Shown piece after piece: positions 1-58,970 of a DNA stretch of 64,000 nt. Both the position numbers and the translations under genes were made by a program. Below the pieces are notes generated by a model, which ran no database searches, was not told where the DNA came from, and saw nothing but the letters and a program-made list of their open reading frames with translations. Source of the stretch: Eucommia ulmoides (Eukaryota > Streptophyta > Magnoliopsida > Garryales > Eucommiaceae); NCBI GenBank assembly GCA_016647705.1, contig CM028338.1:23085577-23149576 (forward strand). Direction: 5' to 3'. The stretch's first letter is position 1, and every line of letters begins with the position of its first letter.

Positions 1-1879
1 AAGGAGGAAAGGGGAATAGCTACTTAAGGATGACTAAGTCCCCTAAATAGGGTGTTCTTGAGGTTCTTGGAGCATGAACTCAAGAAATCGATGGTGATTG
101 ATCAACTTCCAACCAAGAAGTTCAAGAAGGAAAATGAGGTAATCACTTAGGGAAGACCCCATCCCTTAAGTTGGTATGTTTCTGCAAAATCCTCTTTGAT
201 CTTGGTTTAATCTTATGTATTTTTCTTGTACATAGTATCATCATGCAATTTATACACTTAATTTTCATGTACATAATACATAAAATACATAAACAACCAA
301 ACAAACACTTAATTCATGTTATAATAACCAAACTATGTCCAAATCATACAAAACTATCTCAAAAACATCAAGAACGTCTGAGAACATGTTAAAAACATGT
401 GAGAAATCAAATCATCCAAGAACATGTTAAGAACATGTGAGGATTCAAATAAAACAACAATTACACCATGAGTTGTACATACTCTCTACGATTCTCTCAA
501 TAACTTTAAACCGACTCTTTACTAATTGTTAATACTAACTATATAAATACTAATAATTGAATTTACTTTCTGCTAAACATCAAGATCATAGCCAGATTGG
601 CTTGTGAACTGGAACCTATATATTATATACACACACACTACACCGACAAACCCTTGTGACAAAGAACTCGGGATAATGGGAGGGCCTCTATTCCTTCAGG
701 GATATGTGTAATTCTTTTTCAGAAACCTTCCCATTTTTCTTTAGTTATGAGTAGGACTGGCAAAAATATATGCTATTTCTTTTTATTTGTTTTATCTAAA
801 AACTCACACACTAACACTAACTAACCAAAACAAAAGACTTCGGATAAGGTGTTCTTGACAAAATCAAAGAGGTTATGTACATGTTATGTTGTGATTTAGG
901 TTATTCACAACTTCAAAAATGATTAATAATAAACGTAATTAAGGTTGTGATTCAGGTTGATCACAACTTTAAAAATAATTAATAATTACTAGCTAAGGTT
1001 GTGATTCAGGTTGTCCACAACTAAAACTAACTGATAATCAACTAAAACCAACTAAAATCGACTCAACTTTCAATTAAACAAGAATGAACTATGTTTGACT
1101 TGATCTTTGGTAACCGTCCAAAGTACGTAAGCAACCCATAAGAGTTCGGCAACCCCTTTAATAACATAAACCATATCCTTTAACCTAACTCAAACGAACT
1201 ACATAAAGACTTGATTCTCATTAATCCAAAATACGTAGGCAACCCACGTGCGAGTTCGGTCGCATATCTAAATAAATTAGTCTTAGCCTGCATTTCATAT
1301 AGTTTGGATATTTATATTTCCATCTATATAAAATGTTATTGGGTGGCACTGACTAGTATTAGCTGTAGCATTTACTTACTTATCATTGTATTATGTAAAA
1401 AAAAATACATAAAAAGAGAAAATGTTTTGAAAAGGGAAATTATTCTTGCTTAAGTAATCAAAGATAACTACTTGAATATGTTTAACAGTGAATATTTATT
1501 TAGACCAAGGTACCATTTAGGAATGGGTGTCTTAGGGTACGTAAATCCTTCCCCAAGCATAACTGACTCCCAAACTTAAAGAATATCTCTAGTACACAAA
1601 CCTTTGGAAGTCAAAACATGGGTTATTTTAAAAGTAAAAATGAATTTCAAAAATCCCAGTGACCTAACACACTACTTAACCCCATGCTAGGTGTCGACTC
1701 CATTTTTAACATAAAATATCGGCCCAAGAAGTTTTTCGAAACCGAAGGCTAGAAAAGCCCTTAAAAAACCATTTTCAAAATGAACAGAATTGGATGACTT
1801 AGAGAGGAGGGGGTGAAACTTGTTTTCATCCTCTTCCCAATTCTCTACTTATTCCGCTATCAAAATCCGGGGTGCATCA
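1..1879 (+). repeat. 5' LTR of Tat-0 (partial at window start)
   Basis: Collinear with 37,720-39,286 and, more distantly, with 9,780-10,992 and 27,600-29,419. It carries two copies of the ACGTAGGCAACCCA hairpin module (about 1,085-1,150 and 1,200-1,265). It ends in GGTGCATCA directly before a primer-binding site, so this is the 5' LTR of a plus-strand element. The start of the LTR, with its promoter, lies left of the window. Confidence 0.85.
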
Positions 1880-5640: not shown

Positions 5641-7226
5641 TGATAGGTGTGATCTACCTACATATTTTCAAACCGAATTAAGTTAGTTTTCGAGCGTTTA
5701 TATAGTATTTTATTACGTTTTAATTAGTTTTTATTACTTTTTGTATAAAACAGGAATGTGGGGGCACAAAGATAGGAAACTGGAGCGAAAACGATGAGAT
5801 CAAACCAAAAACGGTCGAAGAACGGTGGAAAAACAAGCACGGAGGAAAAATTATGAAAGAAGCCCACCGCTGCGGCGTCCAGACTACCGTCGTGGCGGTG
5901 AAAATACTAAGAAGACTAATATCTTGCTAAACTTCCACCGCCGCAGCACAAGAGATGCAGGATGTTCTTCCTATTTCACTACCTAGGCGATCAACCAACC
6001 GACCTACCCACCACCGCGCAAGTGATCCCATTGCAGCGACGGTGGCCTCTACACAACCTAAGATATTTTTTTAGATATTTTTGAGATATTTTGCTTATAA
6101 ATACCCTACCCTCTCCCCTCCTTTTGCTCTCCCAGGCCATTAGGGCCCCTTAGAAGATATCTAAGGGTAGGTTTAGGAGTTTTAGAGGTAGAGCTCACAT
6201 CCCGAAGTGGAGGAAGACGATGAAGCGATCGTTGAGCGTTCTTAGCGGTTAATCTTCGGACGAGGCTAAGTTCTTCGATTTCTTTTCTTATTTCTTTAAC
6301 TTAGGATTTTGTGATCTTGTTTAGCTCGATTTCAATGTTTATACGGTTATGACCACGAGTTAAATGTGGATTGTATAGGGATTAACAATAAATTTATAAA
6401 TATGTGTTTGGATGATTTCGATGTTGCGTTTATGTTTGTTCTTTGTAGTTTGATTGTGTTTATCGTATTGTTTGTTTATCATGCTTAGTTAGATAAATGG
6501 AGAATACGGGGTTTGACAAACCCCAGATTTGGAATAGGGTAAACAAACGCCACAATCCAATAACCCGGTCGGGGTTAGGATTGTGGACAATCGATGACGT
6601 TGGGACAAGACTCACGTGACCTAGGGTCGTTAAGACATTGAGGGGGAGTTATTCATTGACTCGAAGTCATGTATTCCCCCGTCTTATACTCGGGAGAGGT
6701 GGCGGTGGAGTTTTAAAATCGAGATTGTCGATACAGTAAACACGACGTGACGATCCAATGACCCGGTCAGGAGTTGGATTGTGTGCAATCAATGACGTTG
6801 GGGCGAGACTCACGTGACCTAGGGTCATTAAGATATTGAGGGGGACTTCTTAATTAACATGAAGTTGCGTTATATCCCCTGTATTACACTCGAGAGAGGT
6901 GGTGGAGGAGTTTTAGATACCAAGATTGTCAAATAAGTCGAACACCGTAAACGTGAGTAAATCAAGATTGAACACGTATTTGTAAACAAGTTAATCCCTA
7001 GGCAATTCTTTCCCCTAAAACATATTAGTATATTAGTATAGTTAATTTAGGTTATATTAGTATTAGTTTAATTAATTAAATACATTTATTTTTATCCTAG
7101 ATAAAGTTAGGTCATGACAAATGCGGTACTCGATAGTAACGACACCAATCCCTGTGGATACGATACCCAATTTTAAACAATCACACTATACTAAAACTTT
7201 GACCTCGTACACTTGTGAGTAGTCCA
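5641..7226 (+). mobile_element. solo LTR of the Athila-like family (plus orientation)
   Basis: Begins TGATAGGTGTGATCTACC and ends near CTTGTGAGTAGTCCA. It is the inverse of the LTRs at 13,319-14,825 and 52,077-54,169. A TATAAATA box is at 6,096-6,103. GC-rich CCACCGC/GCGG palindromes occupy 5,867-6,050. Two copies of a roughly 190 bp module (GACGTTGGG..ACTCACGTGACCTAGG) lie at 6,565-6,735 and 6,740-6,925. No interior accompanies it, so it is a solo LTR in Tat-0. I see no clear target duplication. Confidence 0.8.
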
Positions 7227-9570: not shown

Positions 9571-10264
9571 GAGGTGTTGGGGTTTTCACTTTTTCAAGTC
9601 TTAAAGGCCTAGATTCTCTTTCTAAACTTGAACAACTCTCTCGGGTCCTAGGCCTCTCAAGCATATTTGTCAAAAACCACATCCTGATTCTGTCAAAATT
9701 TAGCCAGGGAATGAATTCTTAAGTTCTTAGAACAGGAACTTCAAGGATTGACGATCACCGATCAACATCGAGCCAAGGAGGAAAGGAGGTAGGCTACTTA
9801 GGGACGACTACATCTCCTAAGTAGGTTATTGTTCTTGGGTTCTTGGCTAGGAAATCAAAGAACCGCGACCATCGATCAACCACCGACCAACCATCGATTA
9901 AGGAGAAGGAGGTATACAATTAGGGAAGACCATATTCCCTAAGAACTTGAGATAAATGGTGGGCCTCTATTCCTTTAGGGATATGTGTGAAACCTTCCCA
10001 TTTTCCTTAGTTACAAGTACGACTGACATGAATATATGGTATTTTTTTTCTTCACTTTTTAACTCACAACTCACAAAAAAACACTAAACTAATCAAATCA
10101 AATCAAAGGAGTTCGTTTGAGGCTCTTGACAAAATCAAAGGTTTGTTCCAAGGTTGTGATTCAAGTTTGTTTAATTAAAACTAACTGATGATCAACCAAA
10201 ACTTAACTAAACTAACTCAACTTTTAACCCAAACCAACCCAGCTTTCAAACATAACAAGATTGA

Positions 10265-10545
10265 ATTACATTCGACCTAATCTTTGGTAACCACCTAAAG
10301 TACGTAGGCAACCCATATGGGTTCGGTCACACCTCTAATAATGAATCCAATTTTCAACTTAACAGGAATGAACTACATCTGACTTGATATTTGGTAACCA
10401 CCTAAAGTACGTAGGCAGCCCATAAGGGTTCGGTCACACCACTAATAATAAACCATACCCTTTACCCTAACCAGAATGAACTACGTGATGACCTGATTCT
10501 CATTCGAGATACGTAGGCAACTCACGTGTGGGTTCGGTTGCATAT
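10265..10545 (+). repeat. three double-hairpin modules in the Tat-1 5' LTR
   Basis: Three successive units of about 60-70 bases with the pattern GACCTGAT, stem 1, TACGTAGGCA, stem 2, TTCGGTC. Examples: stem 1 CTTTGG (10,282-10,287) with CTAAAG (10,295-10,300), or TCTC with GAGA (10,498-10,509). Stem 2: AACCCATATGGGTT (10,310-10,323) and AACTCA..TGGGTT (10,519-10,534). The last unit also has CTACGT at 10,481 facing ACGTAG at 10,511. Confidence 0.8.
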
Positions 10546-10992
10546 CCAAACAACTTAGTCTTCGTTTGCATTTCATTTAGTATAGCTTGTACATTTACAT
10601 ATATGTCTATATATAAACTATTATTGGGTGTCACTGACTAGTAGTAACTGTAGTATTTACCTGTTTTCGACTATATCATGTCGAAAATACATAAAAAGAA
10701 CAAAAACCTTAAAAAGGAGAATTATTTATGTTCAAGTAAATCAAATAAAATTGTTTGGACAGTATTTAACAGGGAATATCTATTTAGACTGAGGTACCGT
10801 CTTCGGACGGGTGTCTTAGGCTGTCTAACACCTTCCTCGAGCATAACCGACTACCAAACTTAAAGAATATCTCCAGTACATAGACCTATAGAAGCCAAAA
10901 TACGGGCCATTTCAAAAGGAAAGGGATGAAACTTTTTTTCATCATCTTCCCGATTCTCTACTTCTTTCGCTATCGAAATCCGAGGTACGTCA

Positions 10993-17704: not shown

Positions 17705-19340
17705 CGCCTAAATAAACTTGAATATAATCCATATAATAATGAACTACATCTTTCTAACGAGTATAATTTAGACAAGGAAACAAATCGGGAATTATTAGAA
17801 ATCAAGATGGAAGATGATCCTATTCTCGAGAACATCGAGGAGGTACGAAGAGCCTTAGAAAAATTCAATGAACGACCAATCCCTAGTCAAGACAAGACTA
17901 AAATAGTGAACCTAGGAGATCCAAAAAATCTAAGGGAAACAAAGATTGGGAAATTGATCACTAGCCAAGAGAGAGAAGAGTTGATATCCCTGTTAAAGGA
18001 ATATTAGGATGTTTTTGCATGGTCTTATGATGATATGGTAGAACTATTAACCAACATTGTAACACATAAGCGTCCCATCAAAGAGAAAGTCAGGCCAATC
18101 AAGCAGAAGCTTCGAAAGATGCAACTCAATATCAACCTGAAAGTTAAAAAAGAGATTATGTAGCAGTTCGAAGCTCACCTCATCGAAGTCTGTACTTATT
18201 ACGAGTAGTTGAGTAACATAGTACCAACACCCAAGAAAGACGGAAGAATTTGGGTCTGTGTTGACTATAGAGGCCTCAATGGAGCAAGCCCAAATGATGA
18301 CTTCCCACTGCCAAATATCCACATTATCCTAAACAATACTGCCAGGTGTAGGATTTCGTCCTTTGTGGACGGATTCTGCGGGTACAACCAGATTCTAGTC
18401 AACGAGAGAGACAAGTAGAAGACCACCTTCACCACGCCTTGGGGGGTATTCTGTTATCAATTCATTCCATTTGTACTTAAGAACATAGGAGCAACTTATT
18501 AGAGGGCTATGACAACTTTATGCCATGACATGATCTACAAAGAAATAGAGGTATGCGTGGATGACATGATAGTGAAATTAAGGGACGATGAAGACCATCT
18601 AGAACACTTGAAGAAAATGTTCAAACGCCTTCGAAAATTTCAGTTGAAACTCAACTCGGCTAAGTGTGCATTCGGAGTAGTGTCTCGTAGGCTACTCAGA
18701 TTTATAGTTAAACGACGGAGTATCAAAATTGATCCTACCAAGATTAAATCCATAATTAAAATGCCTGCACCAAGAATTGAAAAGAAAATTTGTGGTTTCC
18801 TTGGGAGAGTGAATTTCATTGCCCGTTTTATTTCGCAACTGACAGTAACCTGTGAACTGATCTTCAAACTACTGAGAAAGAAATCAAACGAGAAATGGAA
18901 CAAAGAATTCCAGGATGCCTTGGAGAAAGTTAAATCCTATCTATTGAACCCTCCTATCTTGGCACCACCCCAACAAGGAAGACGGTTGTTCCTATACCTT
19001 ACGGTCTTAAAAAGTTCTATGGGTGCAATGTTAGGACAACATAACAGTTCAAGTAAGAAGGAACAAGCCATCTACTATGTCTGCAAAAGATTCCTCTCAT
19101 ACGAAGAAAGATACTCGAAACTAGAGAAAACTTTTTGTGTATTAGCCTAGACTGCTCAAAGGTTGCGTCACTATCAGTTGAAATTTACTACTCACTTAAT
19201 AGCCAAAAAGGATTATCCAAGTAGAAAATGTTGTTGACTGAGTTCGACATTATATATGTGACTCAAAGAGTAGTGAAAGGCTAAGCAATCGCCAACCAAC
19301 TTGCTCATAACCCAAGAGTTAACGAAAGGTCCATGGAGAC
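17705..19340 (+). pseudogene. reverse transcriptase and RNase H remnant of Tat-1
   Basis: RT motifs in order: VCVDYRGLNGASPNDDFPLP near 18,255, FVDGFCGYNQI near 18,362, CVDDMIVK near 18,553 (the YVDD box position), CAFGV, then the RNase H connection KFGFLGR-like CGFLGRVNFIARF near 18,790. RNase H begins near 18,990 with LYLTV and MGAMLGQH, then AIYYVCKRF. The order and wording are those of the Tat lineage. These domains copy RNA into DNA and remove the RNA strand. Broken, with several breaks. Confidence 0.88.
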
Positions 19341-20084: not shown

Positions 20085-21060
20085 TAGCGGAGTGTGAGAA
20101 CTACACATGAGCGGATTCATATTATCCAAAAATATCCTACGAACTGGCCACTTTTAGTTAACCATGGAGGGCAATTGTATAAACTTCGTGAGAAGATGTT
20201 AGACGTGCCAAGTGCACGATAACCAGATCCATTTATCCTCGACAGACTTGCATTAGCTAGCGGCCCCATGGCCTTTCTCAATGTGGGGAATGGATGCCAT
20301 AGGTCCAATAACGCCGATGGTACCAAGCGGACGCCAATTCATCCTAATGGCTATAGATTACTTCACTTAGTGGGTGGAGATGGTTTCCTTTACTCACGTC
20401 ACCCAGAGGACTGTAACGAGGTTCTTTAAGGAGAATATTTTGTCACGTTATGGAGTACCTCAAGCCTTCATATCCGATAATGCCCAAAACCTAAAAGGAG
20501 GTATGATGAAAGCCATTTGTAGTCAGTTCAGGGAAAAACACAGGAATTCCGTACCCTACTAGCCGAAAATGAATGGAGCAATAGAAGTCGCCAACAAGAA
20601 CATTAAGGTTATCCTGAGAAAAATGATAAATAACTACAAAGAATGGGATGAGATGCTCCATTCGCTTTGATAGCTTATCGAACATCGATCAGAACATCAA
20701 CTGGAGCCATGCCATATTCATTAGTATATGGAATCGAAGCTATGATCCTAGCAGAGGTAGAAATTCCCTCTCTTAGGATTCTAGTCAAAGCCAAGTTAGA
20801 TGAGGTCGAATGGGTACAACAGAGACTTAACCAACAATGCTTGATAGACGAAAAAAACCTCACTGCTATATGCCACATACAATGCTATCGAAAGAGGATG
20901 GCTAGCGCTTACAACAAGAAGATCTTCCCATTCCAAGACGAAGCTAAAGAAAAAATTTCCCTAAACTGGGAAGGACCTTTTGTTGTCAAGAAAGTGTTAG
21001 GGTATGGGGCTTTAATACTTTAAGAGATGGATGGAGAAGAGTTCCCATAGCCCATTAACG
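20085..21060 (+). pseudogene. integrase remnant of Tat-1
   Basis: The end of the zinc-binding region is near 20,195 (C..CQVH). The catalytic core shows WVEMVSFTHVTQRTVTRFF near 20,371, SRYGVPQAFISDNAQN near 20,440 and MNGAIE-like text near 20,568, with D, D and E positions of the integrase core. It continues to RTSIRTSTGAMPYSLVYG near 20,680 and ends in the GPFVVKKVLGYGALIL block near 20,970. Integrase inserts the DNA copy. Broken, with several breaks. Confidence 0.87.
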
Positions 21061-21354: not shown

Positions 21355-22570
21355 CCGAAGACATCAGATTTTGGCCAGAACTTTGCTTATCTGAGGATTT
21401 TGGATTCATCTAAAGACCAATGTACTATAACTGGGTTGACTAAATCAAAGAATTTGATTGATAATTCTGTGGACTTTGAGATACAAAATAAGACGGGTTG
21501 GAAGCTCCAAGAGATCTGGAAGCCTTCGATAAGTGACCAAGTCTAAGTTTGTACTCCTAAGGAATAGAAAACTTCTAAAAATGGATAATATACTTGACTA
21601 TGCATAGAAAACTCTAACTTCTAATTATTTATATGCTATACTTTTTCATGACTAGCATTTCAGTACAAATTAGTAGAAAAGACCAATGACATAAGATAAG
21701 AGTAATGGAAGCAAGACAAACTTGACATATTATCTATAACCCAATTCCATGTAAGGATATCTAACGTCATCACCGAACCAACCATACATAACGCCTCAAA
21801 TTCCCACGACAACTGCTAGTAACGATATAACCTTTACGTATACTATCTTATGATCCAAATTAAGAAGCCACAAAACCAAAAAAGCACCGCGCACCATAGG
21901 AAGTCATATTTTCAACCATGAGACAAGTTCGGTATACTTTAAAGACTACCTCTAGGAAGCATCCTTGATAAAAGAAGAAAGACCCTCGCCAGACGAATAT
22001 CTGCCAATTCCTGAAGAAACAAGCTAGTGTACACCGTCCAGACAACAAGATCAAGGAACAAAGACATGGTTTTATTTTCTTCTGACAAAAATGTAGGAAA
22101 TGAACATGGCTCACCAAAATGTTGGCCTACAAAGCTAAAACATTTGAAGCAAAATGGACTAAAACCAAAACGAGAAGGTTCACCTTCTAATTATGATAAA
22201 CAGTAAGCCTTGACAATATAGGTAATCACTTTTACCAACCCTTGACTAGACAAAATTCATGAAACTGCACGCCGAGGAGGTTACGCTATTAGAAAAACTC
22301 CTGAAATTCGTTACCCCGACAAATGGTGAGACAGATCAATTTAGCTTTATAATCTTGTAGTTAATCAGTCTCCTCCCTGACCTACAGGCTGGGGCATACT
22401 TTACACTATTGATAATCACGAATCGCACAATAGGATATTCCGGATTAGTTTCCCCAATGGACCTTATCTAGTTGTTGCCTTACTCTACGGCTGGGGCACA
22501 TTTCATCATATCCATATTTTTCTGATGGAAACAACGCTCATTTTATCTCACAATAAGAAATAAATGCCTC
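21355..22570 (+). other. Tat-1 3' non-coding region, first part
   Basis: About 1.2 kb without a recognisable gene. Minus-strand frame 21,860-22,117 has no known motif. Near 22,375 and 22,480 the phrase CTACAGGCTGGGGCAYA / CTACGGCTGGGGCACA introduces the GGGGCACATTAT hairpin family seen further on. Confidence 0.55.
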
Positions 22571-24030
22571 AATCAAAATGAACTTGCCTAGGAACTACTT
22601 GTCAGTTTGATTCCCAGAAATACCCGGGATACGTAAGAAACCCTTGTGAATTCAGTTGACAAATTTAAACTCATCAAAGCCCTAGGAACTACGTGTCAGA
22701 CTGATTCCCGACAACGTCCGGGATATGTCGAAAACACTTACGGGTTCGGTTAACAAGCTTTAGCCCAACCATGTGCGATGAACTGCGTGCTGACCTGATT
22801 TTCAGTTATTTGAGATACGTAGGCAACGTTTACAAGGTTCGGTTGTGCCCTTTAAGCTACAAACTATTCATGCTCATTGAACTAAGTGTCAATTAGATTC
22901 CTTGTGCAAAACAAGAATATATAGTAGTATTTCGACCAGATCCTTGTTAGATCACCAAGGAACGTAAGAAACCCAAGTGGGTTTAGTCAAAATAAAAAGG
23001 AGAGACAAATATCATCTTTATGACACTCTCTCAGACCTAGACCAGGGCATATCTCTAAGAATAGTCGGTTGACCCTCCTAAGAAGATATACATGCACTTT
23101 CCTTGTTTGCCAAACAATAGACGATTTTTAACCAGGAAACTACGTCCAATCTGACTCTTGACAAAACTCGGGACATGTACGAACCCTTCTCCGGTCAGCA
23201 TTGACAAAAATCCCACATCAATAGGGATTTAATCACGTCATCAACAATAAAAATCCCTACAGAGTCACATTAAACAATACGATCCCCATAGAGCTTCTCA
23301 TTGACGAATCCCCCAATTAATTAGGATTAAACTAGACCAAGCATGACAATAACCCTCCAATCCCGATCTAACCATACTAGACTTAAACCAACCGATAAAG
23401 AATTAGGTGTCGACCTTAGTCTTGGTAAGCACTAGGACACGCAAAACCTTTACAGGTTGGGTTGTAATCTTAAACAAAATTCGTCCATCCCCAGTAGACT
23501 ACGCCTCAACCTATCATTGGTAGATCACTAAAGCACATAGGAGACCCAAGCTGGTCTAATCAAAACCAGAGAGATGTCAGCAATCACAACATTCTCTCGG
23601 CCTTATTTTAGGGTGCATCTCCCGAGACGTCACTTGACTTCATTAAGAAGCCGACTACCAATAATTTTATTAAGTAGATAATAAAGGGTACCTGTGCTTG
23701 AATTACGCATCGACCTAATTCTTGGTATATTACTAAGGTACGTGAGAATCCCTTGTGGGTACAATTAACAATCTGAGATAGCATAGCGAGGGCCGAACTA
23801 TATTTAGATTAGATTCCGGACCTAAGAACTCAGTGTATTCAGGTAACCTAGGTGGGTTTCGGTTATCTAGTGATTACCATCTAGAACCAGTAATACCAAA
23901 AGTACATAAACAATTCAACAAGGGTCTCCAAACTAAAACGAACACTACAAATCGCATGCTCAGTTCAGGATACAAAGGCAACCGTGTGGGCTCCACCGCA
24001 TCCTTGGAACGCTCAGGAGATAGTCCTGCG

Positions 24031-24048
24031 CCCCAGCTAGAGCTGGGG
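24031..24048 (+). other. CCCCAGCT..AGCTGGGG hairpin
   Basis: CCCCAGCTAGAGCTGGGG, an 8 bp perfect stem with a 2-base turn, followed by CATTATATC. Related hairpins followed by CAY/CATTATAT occur at 24,096, 24,307, 31,972, 32,029, 32,095 and 32,218. Confidence 0.75.
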
Positions 24049-24625
24049 AACATTATATCAAGTGTCTTAAACTTAGAATCTAATATGGGACTTACCCTAG
24101 CAAGAGTTGGGGCACATTATATCCGATTTTTCCATTGAGACTCTATGATAAGAGTCGCTCCAACTAGAACTAAGCGACATTATATCAGATCTTCTTCTTT
24201 TTGCAGAGTTGTTTGATATAAGACTCGCTCCAATCCCAATCATAATCAATGCAAAAATTAAAAAAAAAATAAAGACTATAATCCCAGGAATTGAACAAGC
24301 ATCATCGAGCCCCAGTCTACGACTAGGGAATATTTTACCCGAGGTTAAACTTTCCCCAGGAAGTTTTCTAGTCCTCGTCACATAATCCCAGGTGGGATGT
24401 AGCCAAGAAACTCCACTAAGTGTTGAGTTCTCCAAGGGTCTTTGCCCATTGTGAATTCTCTCAGTCATTTTCAATCTTATATCGTCACGACAACCCAGGA
24501 ATCAGTATCCCTAACCAAGAACCTGTTTCATCAAATATTGATAAACTTCACGAGTCTGAACTACATTTGACTTGATTCTTATTTAAGTCCGAGATATATA
24601 GGCGCCCCCCATGGGGGTTCGGTCA

Positions 24626-24786
24626 AGTAAGTCAATTTACTATTTTTTAATCAATCAATTCAATTTATTACTTTCAATCAATCAAGTTAATTTATTGTTT
24701 TTTGATTAATCAAGTTAATTTACTATTTTTCAAATCAATCAAGTTAATTTACTACTTTTTAATCAATCAATTAATCAAATTTACTT
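24626..24786 (+). repeat. 28-31 bp minisatellite in the Tat-1 3' region
   Basis: About five units of AATTTACTATTTTTAATCAATCAAGTT. The homologous place in Tat-0 (about 32,525) lacks it, so it arose in this copy's branch. Confidence 0.85.
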
Positions 24787-25357
24787 TACATGCTAGAACT
24801 ACATGTAACCTGATTATCATTAATTTGAGATATGAAGAAAAACCCTTTGGGGTACAGTGACAACTGGGAGCCGATTTAGCGAGTATCGTTCTCCTTGCAA
24901 ACATGAGCCAATTGACCAAGTATTATCCTCCTCATAAACAGGATCTGATTAATCAGACATCACGCTCTCCACCCCCTATTAGGATAAACCGCACATCATC
25001 CTTTAGGAGTAGTGTATTTTAATTTTGTAGTGTAATGCCGACAGCTAGCTAGATAATGTTTTACGAATTCTGGACAATAGTATAGCATAGCAGTAGAATA
25101 TACTTTACCTGCTAGAACTACATGTGACCTGATTCTCATAAATTTGAGATATGTAGGAAAAACCTTTGGGGTCCGGTCACAACCAAGATCCGATTGATCG
25201 ATTATCGTCCTCCTCACAAGCAGGAGTCGATTGATCGATTATCGTCTTCCTCACAAACATGAGTCGATTGATAGAGTGTCATCCTCCCCACCTCTTCCCT
25301 ACCTTCTATTAGAATACACCACGCATCATCCTTTAGGAGCAACGTATTTTAATTTCG

Positions 25358-25610
25358 TAGTGTAACGCAACCAGTAGTGTAACTCAAACAGTAGTGTAAC
25401 ACAACTAATAGTGTAACGCAACCAATAGTGTAATTCAATCAGTAGTGTAATGCAATCAGTATTGTAATTCAATCAGTAGTGTAATTCGATCAATAGTGCA
25501 ATTCGATCAGTAGTGTAATTTGACCAATAGTGTAATTCGATTAGTATTGTAATTCGACCAATAGTGTAATTCGACCAGTAGTGTAATGCGATAGTAGTAT
25601 AATACAATAG
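25358..25610 (+). repeat. 17 bp minisatellite, 15 units
   Basis: Unit TAGTGTAATTCGATCAG. Thirteen units of 17 bp and two of 16 bp run without a gap. It begins where Tat-0 reads ATTTTAATTTCGTAGT (about 33,340). Tat/Ogre 3' regions are known to be hypervariable and to seed satellites. Confidence 0.95.
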
Positions 25611-25952
25611 CATAGTCATTAGGAAGGTTCCCATAAAGTGTCGTCCTCACCATGCCCTATAGGTTTAGATGTATTACCATCCTGCAGGAATGAAGATGAA
25701 CAAAGAGCTAGATGCATCACCATCCTTCCAGTAGTTGTCTCCCATGGTTGATTGTTCATCAATCCTTCGAAGTACACAATGGTAGAAGTGATTAATCGCG
25801 CCATTCTCGTCAAATCCTCCAGGATTAGGTACGTCTTCATCCTTTAAAATAGATTTAAATACTTGTATTCAAATTTCATGTCTAGCATAACAAAATGTTA
25901 GTGTCTCCTTCTTTGTCATTTCTTGTAAACTCGCATGACAAAGAAGGGCAGT
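25611..25952 (+). other. end of Tat-1 interior with polypurine tract
   Basis: About 330 bases without a gene, containing two direct repeats of a phrase around GATGYATYACCATCCT (25,669 and 25,710). It ends in AAGAAGGGCAG (25,941-25,951), a polypurine tract directly left of the 3' LTR. Tat-0 has the same arrangement at 33,660-33,992. Confidence 0.75.
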
Positions 25953-26280
25953 TGTAGACATCGCATTTTGTCCTGCCTAATCAAGTATAAGTTGAGATGA
26001 ACTTTAAACTCAGATTTAAAGGTATTGAATTTATACCTGAGATCACACTATACAATATACAAAAAATAACCAAAAACATGACAAAAATGAAAAAAAAAAA
26101 TGTTGAATTTTACAAAATACAACTAAGTAAAAGTTTCAAGTCAAAATTGAAATCCCTATGGTTTAAGGAGGTCTAAAATGACTTGACTAAGATTTGATTT
26201 TCAAAAAATCATATTTAACATAGATAAATGTTAGTCATTACCCTTAAATTATAGGATATTTCAAATAATTAACTCGGTTA

Positions 26281-26305
26281 CCCCCCCCCCCCCCCCCCCC
26301 CCCCC
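26281..26305 (+). repeat. poly(C) run of 25
   Basis: Uninterrupted C25 where the 5' LTR reads TTACCCCACTCCGACTT (about 8,436). Could be slippage growth of a short C run, or a sequencing or assembly effect. Confidence 0.95.
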
Positions 26306-27405
26306 GATTTTGAAACATTTATTTTTTCCTGAATCTTAACACCAAAAATAATTCTTCCTCTAATGCATACCACATAACACACTACCAAGAAAAATTCCAA
26401 GACACCTTAATCAAATCTTGGAAAGGTCATGACAAAGCCCAAAATCACATGTGATTTAAGGTTTGGGCTTAACTTGGATTTTCACCAAATCCAAGTAGTG
26501 TTGACAAACCACCCTAGGCCCAAGCAATCAAGGGACCTAGCCATCATTTAAGACCCACAAAACAAGCCTTATAATGACCAAGGAGCCTTCCTAGATGTTT
26601 CCTACCAAATGAAAAAGAAGAGGACAAGACACTTAGGGCACAACCAACCATTATCGAAACCAAACCGATTCGATTTGCCACCTAAGTAAGGAATTCAATG
26701 AGAATTGAATTCCCATTCCATAAAGCATTAAATTCTTGGGATTACATGTCAAGACCACATTCAAGGTATCTAGATATTTTAAGCAAAATATCTGAGAAAC
26801 CAACCGAAAGCCTTGTATCGTGACGACCCGTTACAGAAACCAACCAGATGAGTAGCCTCCAAGCAATGCATTTAATGAACATCCCATAAAGCATTAAATT
26901 CTTGGGATGACATGGCATGGATAGGTTCGAAGGATCTAGATATTTTTACAAACATATCTAAGGGTAACTAGGAAACTTGGAAACCACCGACGCTTACAAG
27001 AAAAGTTCACCCGATTCCAACTGAAACGAACCGAATGTGTGGCCTCCAAGTCATGACTCAGCACTTTGCATTAAATGCAAAGTCATACCTAAGTACTAGA
27101 TGCAATGCACCTTGGGAGCATTTATGACGACCAAACTGAAATAGTGGATCTAACTGGTATTTGGCCCCTAAACCAAACCTGATCCATCCCATCAAGTCAT
27201 AAATACACTCATGTGGAAGGAACCTCATTTGTAGAGAGGTAATGATTGCCAATGATTACCAAATCTTTGAGAATCTAGCCTTCTCCCCTAAATTCGTTCT
27301 AAGCCAAATCAAACAAAGACAAAATAGCAAGTACCTTAAGTCAAACACCCCTCAAGGAAGAGGCTGGTGTTGCCTGCGCATTACCTAATGCACATGCCCC
27401 CAGCC

Positions 27406-27413
27406 TATAAATA
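27406..27413 (+). promoter_or_regulatory. TATA box in Tat-1 3' LTR
   Basis: TATAAATA in CAGCCTATAAATAGGGGTG, homologous to 9,563. Confidence 0.75.
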
Positions 27414-28564
27414 GGGGTGCTGATGTTCTCATTTTTTTAAGTCTTAAAGGTCTAGCTTCTCTCTCTAAACTCAAGCAACTCTTTAGGGTCCTAGGCCTCT
27501 CAACTTGATTTTTCTAAAAACATGTCATCATTCTATTGAAATTTAGCTAAGGAAGGAATTCTTGAAGTTCTTAGAACAATAACTTCAAGGATCGACAATC
27601 AGCAATCAACATCGAGCCAAAGAAGAAATGAGGTAGGCTACTCAGGGACTACTACATCTCCTAAGTAGGTCGTTGTTCTTGGGTTCTTGCCTAGGAACTC
27701 AAAGAACCGTGACCATTAATCAACCATCAACTAACCACCGATCAAGGAGAAGGAGGTAAACACTTAGGGAATACCACATCCCCTAAGTAGGTATGTTCCT
27801 ATCAAACCCCCTATGATTTTTGGTTGATTTTGTGCATATTTTTTTTTTTGTATATAGTGGGATCTTGTAAATAATACACTTAATTTCATGTTTTAACACA
27901 TAAAACCCATAAAAAATCAAACAAAACACTAAAAATAACCCAACAAGCTTTTGATTTTGTCAAGAACATCAACCAAGCACCTAATCTTAACTATAACAAC
28001 CAAATTAGGGTTAAATCATGAAAACATCATTCCAAGTATCTCAAGAGCATTCAGAAACATGCCAAGACATTAAAAAATGTAAAATCATCCAAACCACGTG
28101 GTAAAAACACGTGAGGATTCGAGCAAAATTACTATTCACACCATGTGTTGTACATAGTCTATACGATTCTCCCCAAGAACATTGTATTTTTTTTCTTCTT
28201 TACCTAAACAAAACACACATATATACGTATATAGTTATATACTACACTAACAGACCCTCATGGCTAACAAATGGGGATAAATAGAGGGCCTTTATTTCTT
28301 TGGGGATCTGCATGATTCTTCTTCAGAAACCTTCCCATTTTCCTTAGTTACAGGTAGGACTAGGGTTAATATATGGTATTTTTTTTCACTTTTTAACACA
28401 CAACTCACACAAAAACACTAAACTAATCAAAGCAAATGAGTTCGTTTCAGGTTCTTAACAAAATTAAAGGTTTGTTCCAAGGTTGTGATTCAGGTTTGTT
28501 CAATCAAAACTAACTGATAATCAACCAAAACTTAACTAAACTAACTCAACTTTTAACCCAAACC

Positions 28565-28815
28565 AACCCAGCTTTCAAAGTACGTAGGCAGCTCATTAGG
28601 GTTCGGTCACACCTCTAATAATGAATACAGTTTTCAATTTAACAAGAATGAACTACGTTTGACCTGATCTTTGGTAACCACCCAAAGTACATAGGTAGCC
28701 CATAAGGGTTCAGTCACACCTCTAATAATAAACCATACCCCTTACCCTAACCAGAACGAACTACGTGATGACCTAATTCTCATTCGAGATACGTAGGCAA
28801 CCCATGTGTGGGTTT
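28565..28815 (+). repeat. three double-hairpin modules in the Tat-1 3' LTR
   Basis: Stem 1 CTTTGG (28,669-28,674) with CCAAAG (28,682-28,687) is perfect here, where the 5' LTR has a wobble. The last unit has TCTC/GAGA and AACCCATGTGTGGGTT. Confidence 0.8.
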
Positions 28816-29419
28816 GGTCGCATATCCAAACAATTTAGTCTTAGTTTGTATTTCATTTAGTATAGCTTGTATATTTGTATATTTGTCTGTATATAAACTG
28901 TTATTGGGTGTCGCTGACTAGTAGTAGCTATTGTATTTTCCTACTTTCCACTATATCATGTCAAAAATACATAAAAAAAGAACAAAAACTTTAAAACTAG
29001 GAATTATTTATGTTTAAGTAAATCAAAGAAAACTGCTTAGATAGTGTTTAACAGTGAATATTTATTTAGACTGAGGTACCGTCTTCGGACGAGTGTCTTA
29101 GGGTATCTAACACCTTCCTTGAGTATAACTGACTCCCGAAATTTCTAGTACACAGACTTATGGATGTCAAAGCACGGGCAAATTTCAAAAGGAAAAATGA
29201 ATTTCTAAAATCCCGGTGACCTAGCACACCATTTAACCTCATGCAAGGTGGCGACTCTATTTTTAACAAAAAATATCGGTCCAAGAAGTTTTTCGAAACC
29301 GATGCTTAGAAAATCCTTTGAAAAACCATTTTTAAAAAATGAACGGATTTGGACAACTTAGAAAGGAATGGATGAAACTTGTTTTCATCCTCTTCCAAAT
29401 TCTTTACTTCTTCTGCTAT

Positions 29420-30655
29420 ATGGTGAGATATTGGTAAAAAATCTGAGAACGTTAGAAAGAAAACTTAGGTACCCTGTTGTGGAATTACTACACATGTTCC
29501 AGCCTGAGAGTGTTAGAGTGACCTTGAACAAGTATAGAAGACCTCCTCAATCGAAACAGAAGGAAGAGATATCCGAGAAATTTTTCGATATGAAAAATTA
29601 TAGATAAAGTCTTAGAGCCTGACCTTGCTATGGAAAAATCAGGAAGTTAAAGAAAGATGAATCGACTAACGTAAACTAAGACTTATCTAAACATAACCAA
29701 TTCATAAGTACATAGAAACCTACCTAAAATAAAAATAGGAGGAACATGGTAGAATTGATGACAATTGAGACTGGAAGAAGACAACGAACCTTTGTTAATA
29801 TAATATCGAGTAATAGGGAAAGTAGCCAGGATAAGTGTAAAATCAACGAAGACCTCGAGACTAACTCAAAAAACCATAATTCTATAAAAATGTAAAAATC
29901 ATAAAAGTAAGTGTTAAGAGAAACAATAAAATAAAGACCGGACTCAAAAAGTTTCAAAACACTGAGTAGTTACTCAAAAGCGGTCGGGTGAATCACGCTC
30001 TCTATACAATCTAAGTATTAATTCGTAGGGGTGTCTCAACGCCTAGTGATTTGGGACAAATAGACCAGGATCATTACCTAAAACTCGTTGCATGGATTAT
30101 ACAGAAAGTATGACTCCTTACTCGCTGGAGTGAAGAAAAATAACAAGAAAATTCACTAACACTTGTTTCTCCATCACTTTTATTTTCCCTCCTCTAAGTC
30201 ATCTTGGGAAGACCTATTCTGTTTGTCCTCAGTCCATGATAGAAGAAGTGAAACAAATCCATCGATGAAGTCTCGAGTAACATATAATGCCTAGGTATTC
30301 TCGATAACAATCTTAGAAAATATCAATATCAGAACTTTATGGAATTGAAACTGGATAACCTCGTTAACTAATAACAACAGATATTTTTGTCAAAATTACT
30401 ATTAAAATTATGTTCATCATAGTTTAGATTAATTTGATGCAAAAATCATGACAAAAATTAAGATGATTGAATGTTTGAATATGATTACCAAGTATACTCT
30501 AGTCAAAATAATCTCACATAAATGTTGAAGGAAATATATATGGCGCATATAGGTTAATGCTTAGAGCATTAGAAATGAACTTAGGAAAGTATTGGAAAGG
30601 TAGAGAACAAGCCTTATTAAATAGACCATTCACTTGAACTCTCTCCCAAAAACTC
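29420..30655 (+). other. unassigned interior of Tat-0 right of Tat-1
   Basis: No known protein motif. A plus-strand frame to 29,607 reads ILVKNLRTLERKLRYPVVEL, not recognised. A minus-strand frame (29,724-29,957) is hydrophobic and unlike anything I know. By position this should be Tat-0 interior, but it does not match the Tat-1 coding region by eye. Confidence 0.4.
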
Positions 30656-32714
30656 ATACACCTCATATACATAGGTAACCCATATGTGGGTTCAATCATG
30701 CTCTTTAAAATAAAAACCATTCATGCGTATTAAACTAGGCGTAAACTAGAGTCCTTATGAAAACAAGGAGACTTTGGAAACCTTTACAAGGTTTGGTTGA
30801 CAACTAAAGAATACCCAATAACATTTCGACCTGATCCTTGATAAATCACCAAGGTATTTAAGAAACCCAAGTGGATTCAGTTGAAATAAAAAGGGGAGTG
30901 TGGTATCATCTTTATGACGCTCTCTTAGCCCTAAACTAGGGTGTGTCTCTAGGAATAGTCCTTTGACTTTCTTGAGAAAAACCATATGCACTCTCTTCAT
31001 TTACCAAACAATAGAGGATGATTAACCAAGAACTACGTGTCAACTTGACTTCCCACAAAGCTCGGGATGTGTAGGAAACTCTTATTAGGTTTTGGTTGAC
31101 AAACCAATATGCGTCGAACTACGTTTTGACCTAATTCTTGGTAGATTATCAAGATACGTAGGAAACCTTTTCAGTTTCCATTAACAAAATCCCACGTCAA
31201 TTAAGATTAAATCACGACAAACAATAAAATCTCCACATAATTGCTCAATAATAAAGTCCCCCAATCAATTAGGATTGAACCATACCAAATATAACAATAG
31301 CCTACTAATCCAGAGTTAACCATATCAACTTTAATCAACCAAGGAAGAATTAAGTGTCGACCTGAGTCCTGGTAAATACCCAGACACGTGAAACCTTTAT
31401 AGGTTGGGTTATCACCTTAAACAATATTCCTCCATCCCTAGTAGACTACTCTTTGAATTGTCATTGGTAGATCACCAAGGTACATAGGAGACCCAAGTAG
31501 GTCTGGTCCAAGTTAGAGAGATGTCAGCCTCACGACATTCTCTTAGCCCTATATTAGGACGCATCTCCCAAGAAGTCCCTTGACTTCCTTGAGAAACTAA
31601 TCCTTTCGTTAAGTGGACAATAAAATATACATGTGCTCTAACTAGGCATCGACCTAATCCATGGTAGATTACCAAGGTACGTAGAAAGCCCACATGGGTA
31701 TGGTTAACAATCTGAGATAACACAGCGAGGGTCGGACTACATTTCGCTTAGACTCCTAACCTAGGAAATCAGTGTATGAATATAACCCAAGTGAGTTTCA
31801 ATCATTCGATGATCATCATCCAAAACAGTAATTTCAATAATACATAAATAATCCAATAGGGTTTCCAGACTAAAATAAACATCACAATCGCACGCTCAAT
31901 TCAGGATATAGGGGGCAACCCAAGTGGGCTCTGTCGTATCATTTGAATGCTCAGGAAGTAGTCTTGCACTCTAGCTAGAGATGGGGCACATTATAGCCAG
32001 TTTTTTCATTTAGAATCCGTGATGGGACTCACCCCAGCTAGAGCTAGGACACATTATATATCCGGTTTCTCTGTTGAGATTCTATGATAAGAGTCGCCCT
32101 AGGTTGAGATAGGGCATATTATATCAGATCTTCTCCGTAGAGAGTTTCTTGATATAAGACTCACGCCAATCACCAATTGAAATATATAATCCTAGAAATA
32201 AACAAGCATCACAGAGCCCAAGTCTATGACTAAGGCACATTTTATCCGAGGTTAAATTTCCTTAAAGAAGTTTTCTACTCCTCGTCAGGTAATCCCAAGT
32301 GGGATATGACCAAGAAACTCCACTAGATGTTGAGATTCCCTGAGGGCCTTCACCCATGTGAATTCTCTCAGTCATTTTTAATTATGCATTAATGTGATGA
32401 CCCAAGAATCAGTTTCTCTAACCAAGAACCTGTTCTACCAAATATTGATATACTTTACAAGTTCAAACTACATTTGGATTGATTATTAGTTAAGTCTGAG
32501 ATATGTAGGCGCCCTCACGGGGGTTTGGTCAATCCAGCTCACGAAGATCATCGTCGACCTTAGTCTCAAACTGATTAAACACCCCAGAATTAGTTTCTCT
32601 AACCCAGAACCATTCCACCCAATATTGATTTACTTTACATGTTAGAACTAGATATGACCTTATTCTTATTAATTTTGACATATGTAAGAAAACCCTTTGG
32701 TTACAGTCACAACC

Positions 32715-32855
32715 AGGACCGAGTGTCATCCTCCCCACAACCAAGAGATGATTGGTCGAGTGTCATCCTCCCCACAACCATGAGCCGATTGACCAAGTGT
32801 CATCCTCCCCAAAACCATGAGCCAATTTATCAAGTATAATCTTTCCCACAACCTA
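32715..32855 (+). repeat. about 38 bp minisatellite, four units
   Basis: Units of GAGTGTCATCCTCCCCACAA followed by CCATGAGCCGATTGACCA-like text. Tat-1 has two to three units of related text at 25,190-25,290. Confidence 0.85.
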
Positions 32856-33156
32856 TAATATAGACCGTGTGTCATCTTTTAGAAATATAGTAGTGTAGTA
32901 TATAATCGAGAGAACTTGTGCAAGAGTGTCGTCCTCACTATGACCTTAGGGCTAGGTACTGCGATACCGTCCTAAGGTATAGTATAGTATAGTATAGATT
33001 TACTTTCCATATAAGAACCATATGCGACCTGATTCTCATTATTTTGAGATATGTAGGAAAACCCTTTGGGGTACAGTCACAACCAAGAGCCGATTGACAG
33101 AGTGTTATCTTCCCCACCTCTTATTGGATAGACAACGCATCATCCTTTAGGAGCAA

Positions 33157-33331
33157 TATTTTAATTTTAAACGAGACAGCAAGCGAGACAGAATTTTAAT
33201 TTTAAATGACACAACCAGCGAGACAGTATTTTAATTTTTAATGAGATAGCCAGCGAGACAACATTTTAATTTTAAATAAGACAGTTAGCGAGATAGTATT
33301 TTAATTTTAAACGAGATAGCCAGCGAGACAG
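33157..33331 (+). repeat. 35 bp minisatellite, five units
   Basis: Five units (175 bases) of TATTTTAATTTTAAACGAGA followed by CAGCCAGCGAGACAG. It lies just left of the place where Tat-1 has its 17 bp array: both grew next to the shared ATTTTAATTTCGTAGT phrase but from different seeds. Confidence 0.93.
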
Positions 33332-35237
33332 TATTTTAATTTCGTAGTATAGTGTGGTAGTAGAATTTAATTTACCTGCTAGAACTACATGTGACCTGAT
33401 TCTCATTAATTTGAGATATGTAGGAGAACCCTTTGGGTACGGTCACAACTAGGAGTCTATTGACCAAGTGTCATCTTATCCACCTCCTATAGGATAGACC
33501 GCGCATTATCATTTAGGAATTTATTGGGAAGGCTTGTAGAGAGTGTCATTCTCATTGAGACCCTAGGGCCAGGTACTGTGACTCCAACCTAAGGTATAAT
33601 AGTGTAATAGCAACGATTAGTTTAATAACAACCAATAGTGTAATACGATAGTAGTATAACTCTCGAGAGGGCTCATATAGAGTGTCGTCCTCACTATGCC
33701 CGATAGGATCAGATGTATTGCCATCCTCCGAGAATATAGATAGACAAGAATCAGATGTGTTACCATCCTTCCAGTAGTAATCTTCGAAGGTTGATTGTTC
33801 ATCATCCTTTGAAGTATACAATGGTTGAAGTGATCAATCGACATCCTTGTTGAATCCTCAAGGACTAGGTATGTCTCCATCCTTTAGGATAGATTTAAAT
33901 CCTTGTATTTATATTTCATGTCTAGCAGAACAAAATGTTAGTGTCTCCTTATTTTTCATTACGAGTAAACTCGCATGATAAAGAGGGACAGTTGTAGACA
34001 CTGCATTTTGTCCCGCCCGGTCAATATCGAATCAAGTACAAGTTTAGATAAACTTTAAACTTAGGTTTGAAGGGGTTGAATTTATTCATGAGATCACATT
34101 GTATAATATACAAAAATACCCAAAAAAATGAGAAAAACACAAAAAATTGTTGAATTCGATAAAATGCAGTTAAGTAAAAGTTTTGGGTTAATCTCGAAAT
34201 TCCCATAATTTAAGGGGTCTAAAATGACTATATTATAGTTTGATTTTCATTAAATAATATTTAATATAGATAAAAATTAGACACTACCATTAACTTATAG
34301 TATATTTCAAACAAATTACTTCGGTTACCTACCCTGACCATTAAATTAACACAAAAAACAATTGTTTTAATTATGCATATTATATAAAACACCACCAAGA
34401 AACAATCCAAGAGAGCTTAATAAAGTATTGGAAAGGTTATTACAAGCCCAAAATCACGAAGGCGGTTAAGGAGGTGGACTTGATTTGGAATTACACCAAA
34501 TTCAAGTTGTCTTGACAAACCACCCTAGAACCAATGAATTAAGGGCCTAACCATAATTAAAGGCCCAAAAAATAGGCCTTTAAATAACCAATGAACCTTC
34601 CCATAATTTTCCTACAAATTATCTAGGAAGGGAACCAAGACACTTAGGTTGTGACAAACCGTTATCGAAGCGAAACCAATTTGGTTTGCCACCTAAGTTA
34701 GGCATTTAATGAGAATTAAATGCCCATCCCATGAAAAATTAAATGATTGGGATGAAATGGATAGGCCATATTCAAGGTATATAGATATTTTGATCAAAAT
34801 ATCTTAGATTTAACCAAAAATCTTAAAATGTGACGACCCGTTACTGAAACAAAATCAAATTAGTTTGCCATCTAGCCAATGCATTAAATGCACACCCCAT
34901 CAAGCAATTAATTTTTGGTATTACATGGAAAGACTAGGTTCAAAGAATAGATATTTTCATCAAAATATATTAGGGGAACTAAAGAATTTGAAAACCAACT
35001 GTCGGTTACAAGATAAATTAACCTGATTCAATCCGAAACTAACCGAATAAGGCTCACCAAGAAATGACTCATAAAAGAGAATTCAATGCAAGGGTGACAT
35101 ATCAAGACTAGGTTCAATGCATTTGGAAATCATTAATGGCAACTAAACCGAAATATTGAAACTAATCGGTACTTAGACCATAAAGAGAACTGGAAGTGTC
35201 ACATCGAGCCATTAATACACACATGTGCAACCCTTAT

Positions 35238-57845: not shown

Positions 57846-58255
57846 GAAGAGAGGGGATTAAATAGAGAAAATATCTAAAAAGTATCTAATCTGGTGCAGA
57901 GGTGACCGTTGTTGCGATGGGATTCACCGTCGTGATGGTGGGTATGTTGGTTTAATATTCACCGCAACGGTGGAGAAGGCCCTTCTCTGCATTTTCCCCG
58001 CCGCAACGGAGGTCTGACGCCGCGGCGGGGGGCTGTTGATCTGATTATTTCCTCCGTTCTTGTTTTTCCACCGTTCTCCAACCATCCTTGGTCTGAATTG
58101 ATCGTTTACGCTCCAATTTCATACATTTTCACCCCCACACACTTGATTTATACAAAAAGAATAAAAACTAATTAAAACATAATAAAAACGCTATAAAAAA
58201 TACTCTAAAACTAACAAAACCGGTTTGAAAATATTTAGGTAGATCACACCCATCA
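57846..58255 (-). repeat. Athila-like LTR end fragment
   Basis: Matches 53,720-54,169 (GGGGATTAAATAGAGAAAATA .. GATCACACCCATCA), with palindromes at 57,900-58,035. Confidence 0.8.
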
Positions 58256-58970
58256 GTGGGCAACCCACGTGCCAATTTGGTCGCATATCCAAACAATTTA
58301 GTTTTAGTTTGCATTTCATATAGCTTTTATATTTATATTCATGTCTCTTATAAACTGCTATTGGGTTGTCACTGCCTTGAATAGTATAGTATAGTATAAT
58401 ATTTACTGCTTTCATTATGATAAAAACACAAAAAATGTTTTTGTTTCTAGTTTTAGTTGCATAATAGATAACCTTTACTGCTTACATCATGATCAAATAC
58501 ATAAAAAGAGGAAAAACTCTTAAAAAGGGAATTATTGTTGTTCAAGTAATCAAAGAAAACTGCTTCGGTATGTTGAACAGTGGATATCTATTTAGACCAA
58601 GGTACCATTTATAAACGGTTGTCTTGGAAAGCGTAAAATCCTCCCCAATCATAACTGACTCCCGAACTTAAAGAATATCTCTGGTACACAGACCTTTGGA
58701 AGTCAAAACATGGGCATTTTAAGGAAAAATGAATTTCTAAAATTCCGGTGACATAGCACACCATTTAACCCTATGCTAGGTGTCGACTCCGTTTTAAACA
58801 CAAAATCCTGGCCCAAGAATTTTTTCAAAGCTGACGCCTAGAAAAAACCCTTGAAAAACCATTTTAAAAAATGAACGGATTTGGACGACATAGAGAGAAA
58901 GGGATGAAATTTGTTTTCATCCTCTTCTTGATTCTCTACTTCTTCCACTATCAAAATACGGGGTGCGTCA
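58256..58970 (+). repeat. Tat LTR end fragment
   Basis: Last 715 bases of a Tat LTR, from within a hairpin module (GGCAACCCACGTGCC) to GGGTGCGTCA, collinear with 28,790-29,419 and 1,235-1,879. No primer site follows, so it is not a 5' LTR in place. Confidence 0.8.

Follow-up and report, generated by a model that had tools for sequence, protein, structure and literature searches.

The window analysed here is a 64,000-nucleotide stretch of the Eucommia ulmoides genome (assembly GCA_016647705.1, contig CM028338.1, positions 23,085,577 to 23,149,576 of the forward strand) that holds several decayed long terminal repeat (LTR) retrotransposon copies, seen as long direct repeats. Scattered through their LTRs and 3' noncoding regions are diverged units of about 65 bases, and there is about an even chance, in our estimate, that each is a copy of a single RNA module acting in cis in a Tat-clade retrotransposon. 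An initial annotation had described more than twenty such units, placed in LTRs and 3' regions, as double hairpins whose stem letters change while pairing is kept. A profile seeded with 13 units and then iterated over the window bears out both the number and the placement: it finds 34 matches at E<1 (32 at E<0.001), all on the + strand, with two, three and three in LTRs, 13 in each of two copies of a 3' noncoding region, and none elsewhere. By these profile matches the units belong to one sequence family.

All of the units run on the same strand as a series of pol remnants, which comprise a reverse transcriptase end with RNase H (18503..19150, +; PF00078 at 29.2 bits for a cut-off of 29.6, PF17919 above cut-off), a second RNase H-like stretch resembling RVT_3 (PF13456; 19494..19860, +) and an integrase core (PF00665, rve; 20371..20562, +), the last two below cut-off; PF17919 is the only one above its Pfam cut-off. 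According to one source an aRH lies between RH and INT in both Ogre and Retand (PMC6317226), the remnant order agrees with that arrangement, and we read the PF13456 stretch as a putative aRH. The pol remnants matched by Pfam end at 20,559, and the interval from there to the next LTR, whose start was set by eye near 25.95 kb, is ∼5.4 kb long and includes minisatellites; a long, tandemly repetitive region at this place is what marks a Tat element. The units at 22.6-25.2 kb sit in this region, downstream of the pol remnants and upstream of the LTR, and those at 30.7-33.4 kb represent a second copy of it. On sequence grounds, the unit-bearing element is best explained as a Tat-clade (Ogre- or Retand-like) LTR retrotransposon.

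The initial annotation listed 13 stem pairs, each of which lies exactly where it was placed, and both of its stems stand; the double hairpin nevertheless leaves out two helices suggested by the conserved boxes of the units, CTACGT/ACGTAG (P1) and YGACC/GGTCR (P2). With stem 1 (here P3) and stem 2 (here P4) these would give the order P1-P2-P3-P3'-P1'-P4-P4'-P2', in which P2 crosses P1. In a worked example from the first 3' region copy (22778..22845, +), 22783..22788 pairs with 22817-22822 as P1 (6/6 pairs, alignment columns 11-16/48-53), 22791..22795 with 22841-22845 as P2 (5/5, columns 19-23/71-75), 22800..22805 with 22810-22815 as P3 (6/6, columns 28-33/41-46) and 22825..22829 with 22835-22839 as P4 (4/5 with one mismatch, columns 56-60/65-69). 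A crossing topology of six and four pairs appeared in just 21 of 20,000 shuffles, with P2 set at four pairs, since the majority row lacks a fifth (at columns 19/75 some units have C-G and others T-A); asking for five P2 pairs, which the majority row itself does not have, reduced this to 2 of 20,000. A fold of the module into a nested double pseudoknot, through P1 and P2, is supported but not proven. We consider it likely that a folded nucleic acid has been under selection, and on balance probable that P1 and P2 are both genuine helices. For GGTTCGGTC, which is B-box-like, a tRNA-like reading was dropped because its GGG pairs upstream rather than downstream.

The units are distributed along the window as follows (all coordinates + strand). 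In the LTRs they lie at 1084..1151 (P1 5/6, P2 3/5, P3 6/6, P4 4/5) and 1194..1264 (P3 decayed to 2/6), at 10261..10331, 10368..10438 (P1 5/6, P2 5/5, P3 5/6, P4 5/5) and 10476..10542, and at 28573..28611 (3' half only), 28648..28718 and 28756..28822. Besides the worked example, the first 3' region copy contains units at 22590..22661, 22684..22755, 22930..22991, 23398..23466, 23699..23770, 23794..23867, 24557..24626 (P4 of CCCCC/GGGGG) and 25114..25182 (a paired P1 change, CTACAT/ATGTAG), a weak partial unit at 22878..22923 (E 0.0076) and decayed units at 23138..23195, 23498..23564 (P2 1/5) and 24795..24863. The second copy carries a 3' half at 30658..30699, units at 30733..30801, 30821..30885, 31028..31101 (P1 6/6, P2 5/5, P3 5/6, P4 4/5), 31115..31185, 31345..31414, 31445..31508, 31640..31709, 32466..32532, 33013..33082 and 33381..33448, a decayed unit at 32644..32712 and a doubtful one at 31736..31802 (E 0.23). 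A further truncated unit proposed at 58,256-58,285 can be followed by eye (58251..58290, +), its 3' half and flank being like the unit at 28,788 and the flank of that unit, and has no profile match at E<1. Most copies are decayed, as the initial annotation had said of several: at most one broken pair per stem is found in only 97 of 311 aligned units and in 5 of the 31 from the window, and the window copies are best explained as fossils of ancestral elements on which selection acted.

The 311 distinct units derive from 319 profile matches in the window and 76 further loci of the same genome, eight matches being left out as identical or running off a locus; some loci overlap (L027 and L028), identical units were counted once, and columns of less than 30% occupancy were dropped. 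After rebuilding from a larger set of loci, the profile gives 31 window units a score of 20 bits or more, and no match of at least 15 bits arises on the reversed sequence of 51 records (352,680 bases). Of 50 further loci, 47 have all of their units on the same strand and three (L032, L038, L042) have units on both. In genome-wide pattern searches, which covered 946.7 Mb of one genome, the 5' box pattern (up to two mismatches) has 5,795 matches, as against 5 for the same pattern read backwards. In IMG/VR a 15-base pattern matches six contigs, none of which contains a unit (best profile score 11.4 bits), and a two-box pattern has no match there and four in bacterial contigs elsewhere, which we take for chance.

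The case for the fold is carried by covariation. Under a tree-aware null, which preserves columns and is simulated along the units' own tree (311 units, 3,081 column pairs), the P3 pairs rank 1, 2, 3, 6 and 20 by pairing-excess z, a P4 pair ranks 7, a P1 pair 8 and two P2 pairs 36 and 53. Helix sums over 3,000 simulations (floor p 0.0003) exceed the null for P3 (z 24.8, p at the floor), P1 (z 8.5, p 0.004), P2 (z 7.6, p 0.002) and, with one covarying pair, P4 (z 5.1, p 0.017), while none of eight helices shifted by one base does so, the lowest p being 0.077 for a shifted P2. Among 2,556 possible five-pair helices P3 ranks 1, P1 9, P2 15 and P4 82; eight helices outrank P1, six of them from the P3 diagonal and two from no named helix. 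P3 thus carries many compensatory changes, and the claim of changed letters with pairing kept holds under this null for the first stem of the initial annotation and more weakly for the second.

A second program applied to subfamily representatives (122 picked, 120 after two truncated ones were omitted) found 80.9% of cells paired and a covariation score of 0.312, as compared with 0.240 +/- 0.007 in shuffles and 0.04-0.13 (maximum 0.133) in slid helices. Taken alone, P1 and P2 each exceeded 500 of 500 shuffles on three of five measures, and P2 has 60 cells changed on both sides where shuffles have 32; P4 alone is weaker, its covariation score being reached by 9 of 500 shuffles. In the 19 subfamilies of at least four members, 87% of the named pairs are Watson-Crick, as opposed to 26% when columns are re-paired. 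Units in LTRs (104, defined by a site like a primer binding site (PBS) within ∼800 nt with at most 3 mismatches of 13) and the other 207 both pair more than column independence would give in all four helices. Branch-wise co-substitution gives helix scores of 9 for P2 and 8 for P1 at a 99th percentile of 7, with P3 leading. Changes in length are also unevenly spread: 194 of the 311 units depart from the modal length in loop L3, as do 2, 2, 0 and 0 in P1 5', J3/1, J4/2 and P2 3', and 48, 58 and 82 in P2 5', L4 and P4 5', the last three owing partly to gap placement beside variable positions.

The middle of the P1 boxes could also be followed across the genome. A 5' CTACAT with the complementary 3' ATGTAG occurs at 882 places (control 43), and with the unpaired 3' ACATAG at 209 (control 40). 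As matches found minus control, with the 5' state named first, a 5' CG gives CG-CG 1091, CG-TG 294 and CG-CA 381, a 5' CA gives CA-CG 442, CA-TG 839 and CA-CA 169, and a 5' TG gives TG-CG 448, TG-TG 192 and TG-CA 187. By hand calculation the paired CA-TG state has an odds ratio of 7.0.

Placement within the element may inform where in the transcript such a module would act. The units near 1.1 and 28.6-28.8 kb have a PBS-like site 426 and 425 nt downstream, that of the LTR near 25.95-29.25 kb being GGTGGCGACTC (29247..29257, +), a putative mark of the LTR 3' end; those near 10.3-10.5 kb were assigned to an LTR through the 91% identity of 10297-10596 with 28577-28876, and not via a PBS-like site. 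A PBS-like site follows 32 of 119 unit groups within 900 nt, in 30 cases at 310-609 nt, and in eight of the 32 a TATA-like motif follows within 200 nt, five times at 67-68 nt. In the window a TATA-like TATATAAAC, a putative promoter, lies 68 nt after the last LTR unit (28890..28898, +). We infer that transcription starts at the TATA-like box; the LTR units would therefore lie in U3, and so only near the 3' end of the genomic RNA. Position in U3 and in the 3' noncoding region suggests that the units are present in the transcript, and such placement would fit a part in export, stability, polyadenylation or packaging.

Several observations weigh against the proposed fold and its placement. Under a stricter null, our own and R-scape-like, which moves substitutions between columns, the best pair reaches only E 0.38 and none of 2,850 pairs is significant; the covariation claimed initially thus exceeds a phylogeny-aware null and not this one. 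High-z pairs are not in excess overall (z>4, 6 with 8 expected; z>5, 2 with 3.4 expected; z>3, 32 over the whole alignment with 23.5 expected), and the case consequently rests on where they fall, because their number does not exceed the null. Among the 120 representatives, neither pairs with two-sided change (18, shuffled 17.1) nor further pair types (44, shuffled 44.5) are in excess, and P1 alone and P2 alone are likewise without excess in these two counts, which the tool's description gives as the measures least misled by relatedness. P1, which is nearly palindromic, still scores 0.200 when slid two columns, as compared with 0.226 in place. Because most pairs of P1, P2 and P4 hardly vary, support amounts to one to three pairs per helix, and no single P1 or P2 pair is significant in branch-wise co-substitution (lowest p 0.079), a test that, apart from P3 and one P4 pair, has little power to resolve individual pairs. 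The mirror P1 change TG-CA (5' CTATGT, 3' ACATAG) is unenriched (odds ratio 1.2, with unpaired controls at 1.1 and 1.6), and therefore only one paired P1 change is well supported, which may be a single old event.

The remaining points of this kind concern stability, strand and sampling. Unguided, RNAalifold predicts four P3 pairs and nothing else, at a consensus energy of only -0.27 kcal/mol, and folding energies lie barely below those of dinucleotide shuffles (mean z -0.70 for the 31 window units, -0.95 for the 280 others; -0.4 and -0.8 on the complement strand), so the check by shuffling comes out just slightly in favor of the units and the fold rests on covariation rather than on stability. 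Because G-U and A-C are equally depleted (534 with 826 expected, 577 with 877 expected), half-changes distinguish neither one strand from the other nor RNA from DNA. Alignment columns 8-11 (conserved GAAC) and 67-70 (GTTC) are complementary, and this alternative helix passes the tree-aware null (p 0.012); it would form at the expense of P4 and part of P1, so the module might switch between conformations. The TATA-like motif is unenriched, following 11 of 91 groups within 200 nt as compared with 0.23 per 200 nt across the loci as a whole. P1 and P2 were proposed from window units that themselves make up 31 of the 311 tested, and all data come from one genome. Apart from these points, some units of 3' arrays (L033, L066, L002, L049) have ACGTAG or a near-match directly upstream, and the resulting tight palindrome ACGTAG-GAA-CTACGT is a possible alternative partner of the P1 5' strand.

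Other repeats share the locus. Tandem Repeats Finder reports none of the units and instead finds minisatellites of 17-105 bp between them, at 24629-24775 (28 bp), 25177-25291 (37 bp), 25357-25607 (17/51 bp), 32717-32853 (37 bp) and 33154-33342 (35/105 bp), which except for the 37-bp ones are unlike between the two 3' region copies. Within an LTR a run of 25 C occupies 26281-26305. Further direct-repeat blocks lie at 13740-13980, 52348-53285, 6546-6895 and 57696-57847, with copies 198 bases apart in two places, and three copies of a ∼1-kb block, joined by us from three repeat families, lie at 54460-55454, 56285-57279 and 61399-62398, spaced 1.8 and 5.1 kb.

The units would probably fall in the 3' part of the genomic RNA (those of the LTRs through U3), where a dozen or more copies could together serve as a multivalent platform that binds a host or Gag protein. 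Such a platform would most likely aid the export from the nucleus, or the stability, of genomic RNA that is very long and unspliced, by analogy with the transport elements of mouse LTR retrotransposons; that the role is export or stability rather than another is a tentative suggestion to which we give somewhat less than an even chance, its chief competitors being packaging and action at the level of DNA. The full proposition, an undescribed small RNA fold with the topology of the hepatitis delta virus (HDV) ribozyme minus its catalytic core, present in thousands of genomic Tat copies, used serially and multivalently near the 3' end of genomic RNA and perhaps an export or stability signal, is more doubtful still.

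It is possible, although we think it unlikely, that only the hairpins are real, with P3 and perhaps P4 folding in RNA or extruding in DNA while the boxes ACTACGT, ACGTAGG and GGTTCGGTC are kept for their sequence, for instance as protein-binding sites, and are complementary by chance. P3 holds nearly all of the signal, the box pairs hardly vary, the mirror P1 change is unenriched and the pair and pair-type counts for P1 and P2 do not rise above shuffles; yet P1 and P2 pass the tree-aware test where shifted helices fail, P2 has nearly twice the shuffled number of two-sided changes, and the crossing topology is rare among shuffles. Selection could instead act on DNA, with the units as repeated transcription-factor sites or cruciform repeats in a U3 promoter and an enhancer-like 3' region. 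TACGTA is similar to bZIP or NAC sites, five of the 32 PBS-bearing groups have a TATA-like motif 67-68 nt after their last unit, and G-U and A-C are depleted alike, but constraint over 65 bases, covarying stems and length change mostly confined to loops exceed the needs of a factor site, the TATA-like motif is no commoner after units than at large, and crossing helices do not fit a cruciform. Accordingly, the initial alternative of folded RNA or cruciform DNA keeps its support for selection on a fold under the tree-aware null, whereas a cruciform alone would miss P1 and P2 if both are real, and DNA elements seem to us distinctly unlikely.

An RNA signal for packaging or dimerisation bound by Gag is no likelier than such DNA elements: the units are numerous, share the strand of the pol remnants and, being potentially multivalent, would suit Gag, but packaging signals are usually in the 5' leader, and within the window no unit was found in a 5' leader, all matches being in LTRs and 3' regions. 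A series of pseudoknots in 3' noncoding sequence might also block 5'-3' exonucleases, by the same general logic as the tandem pseudoknots of some viral 3' untranslated regions (UTRs); the HDV-like connectivity differs from that of known resistant RNAs, no Rfam match falls on the units searched, and we regard this role as improbable. Equally improbable is that the units are nothing more than the hypervariable tandem repeats usual in the 3' UTR of Tat elements, with covariation that reflects shared ancestry. Such repeats are common there and of unknown function according to two sources (PMC7004042, PMC11963269), the strict null is unbeaten and high-z pairs are not in overall excess; against this, Tandem Repeats Finder misses the units while reporting the separate minisatellites, the units are common to LTRs and 3' regions, and the strongest associations fall on one antidiagonal. 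Least credible of all is an HDV-like self-cleaving ribozyme or its relic. The helix order P1-P2-P3-P1'-P4-P2' is the same, but J4/2 is 1 nt in 311 of 311 units and leaves no room for a catalytic stretch, cleavage before P1 would remove the conserved GAA that stands there, P3 has six pairs rather than three, and in the three stretches compared with Rfam at E 5 no match is to an HDV family; this candidate was rejected for its J4/2 length, the conserved bases before P1 and the lack of an Rfam match.

The proposed module would be a new form of cis-acting retroelement RNA structure, seen in one genome only. Rfam 15 has no match at gathering threshold in the window, and at E 5 none on a unit in window positions 22500-25250 or in the loci L033 and L040; at E 5 there was one match in the window stretch and ten in the two loci, mostly to microRNA models, the best being mir-4803 (L040 9840-9901, E 0.0006, 37 bits for a gathering threshold of 90), away from the units. 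That stretch of L040 is overlapped by several microRNA models on both strands and is probably a simple inverted or low-complexity repeat. No description of this fold appears among the literature matches listed, which consist of titles and the starts of abstracts and cover few subscription papers. Tandem repeats of the pol-to-3'LTR region are reported with no structural or functional account in the accessible text of two sources (PMC7004042, PMC11963269), the second of which, a Retand survey, calls the origin and function of the long region's repeats unknown. The units may have been overlooked because this survey used Tandem Repeats Finder, which misses them. According to a review, direct study of LTR-retrotransposon RNA export in plants is lacking (PMC12786077). 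With a conserved RNA module that can be tested, the export, stability or packaging of these abundant plant elements would become open to experiment. The 5' box of the module is common enough in the genome for strong comparative tests, and, if our reading is true, the module is perhaps the missing export or stability signal of giant plant retrotransposons.

Known systems share some of these features. HDV-like ribozymes would share both the four-helix order and the nested double pseudoknot if P1 and P2 form together here; their J4/2 is several nt long and holds the catalytic C, whereas the units have no room for it, carry conserved bases before P1 and a longer P3, and have no Rfam match in the stretches searched. 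Other mobile elements do carry HDV-like ribozymes, according to one account (PMC4035085). The exonuclease-resistant pseudoknots of viral 3' UTRs also stand as several small pseudoknots in series near the RNA 3' end, but with different connectivity, and no Rfam match falls on the units searched. In Ogre/Tat and Retand elements the tandem repeats of the 3' UTR occupy the same place, after pol and before the 3' LTR, and are hypervariable and family-specific (PMC11963269, PMC7004042), whereas the present units span many subfamilies, occur also in LTRs and appear to keep a fold. The nearest functional parallel may be the transport elements (CTE of simple retroviruses, RTE of mouse IAP and MTE of musD), which are likewise structured RNA of an LTR element. 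They lie in a 3' noncoding place, as single or few elements. That of mouse musD contains a pseudoknot, according to a review (PMC12786077). In comparison with all three, the Tat elements would deploy up to a dozen or more small units, in a different fold, sequence and host.

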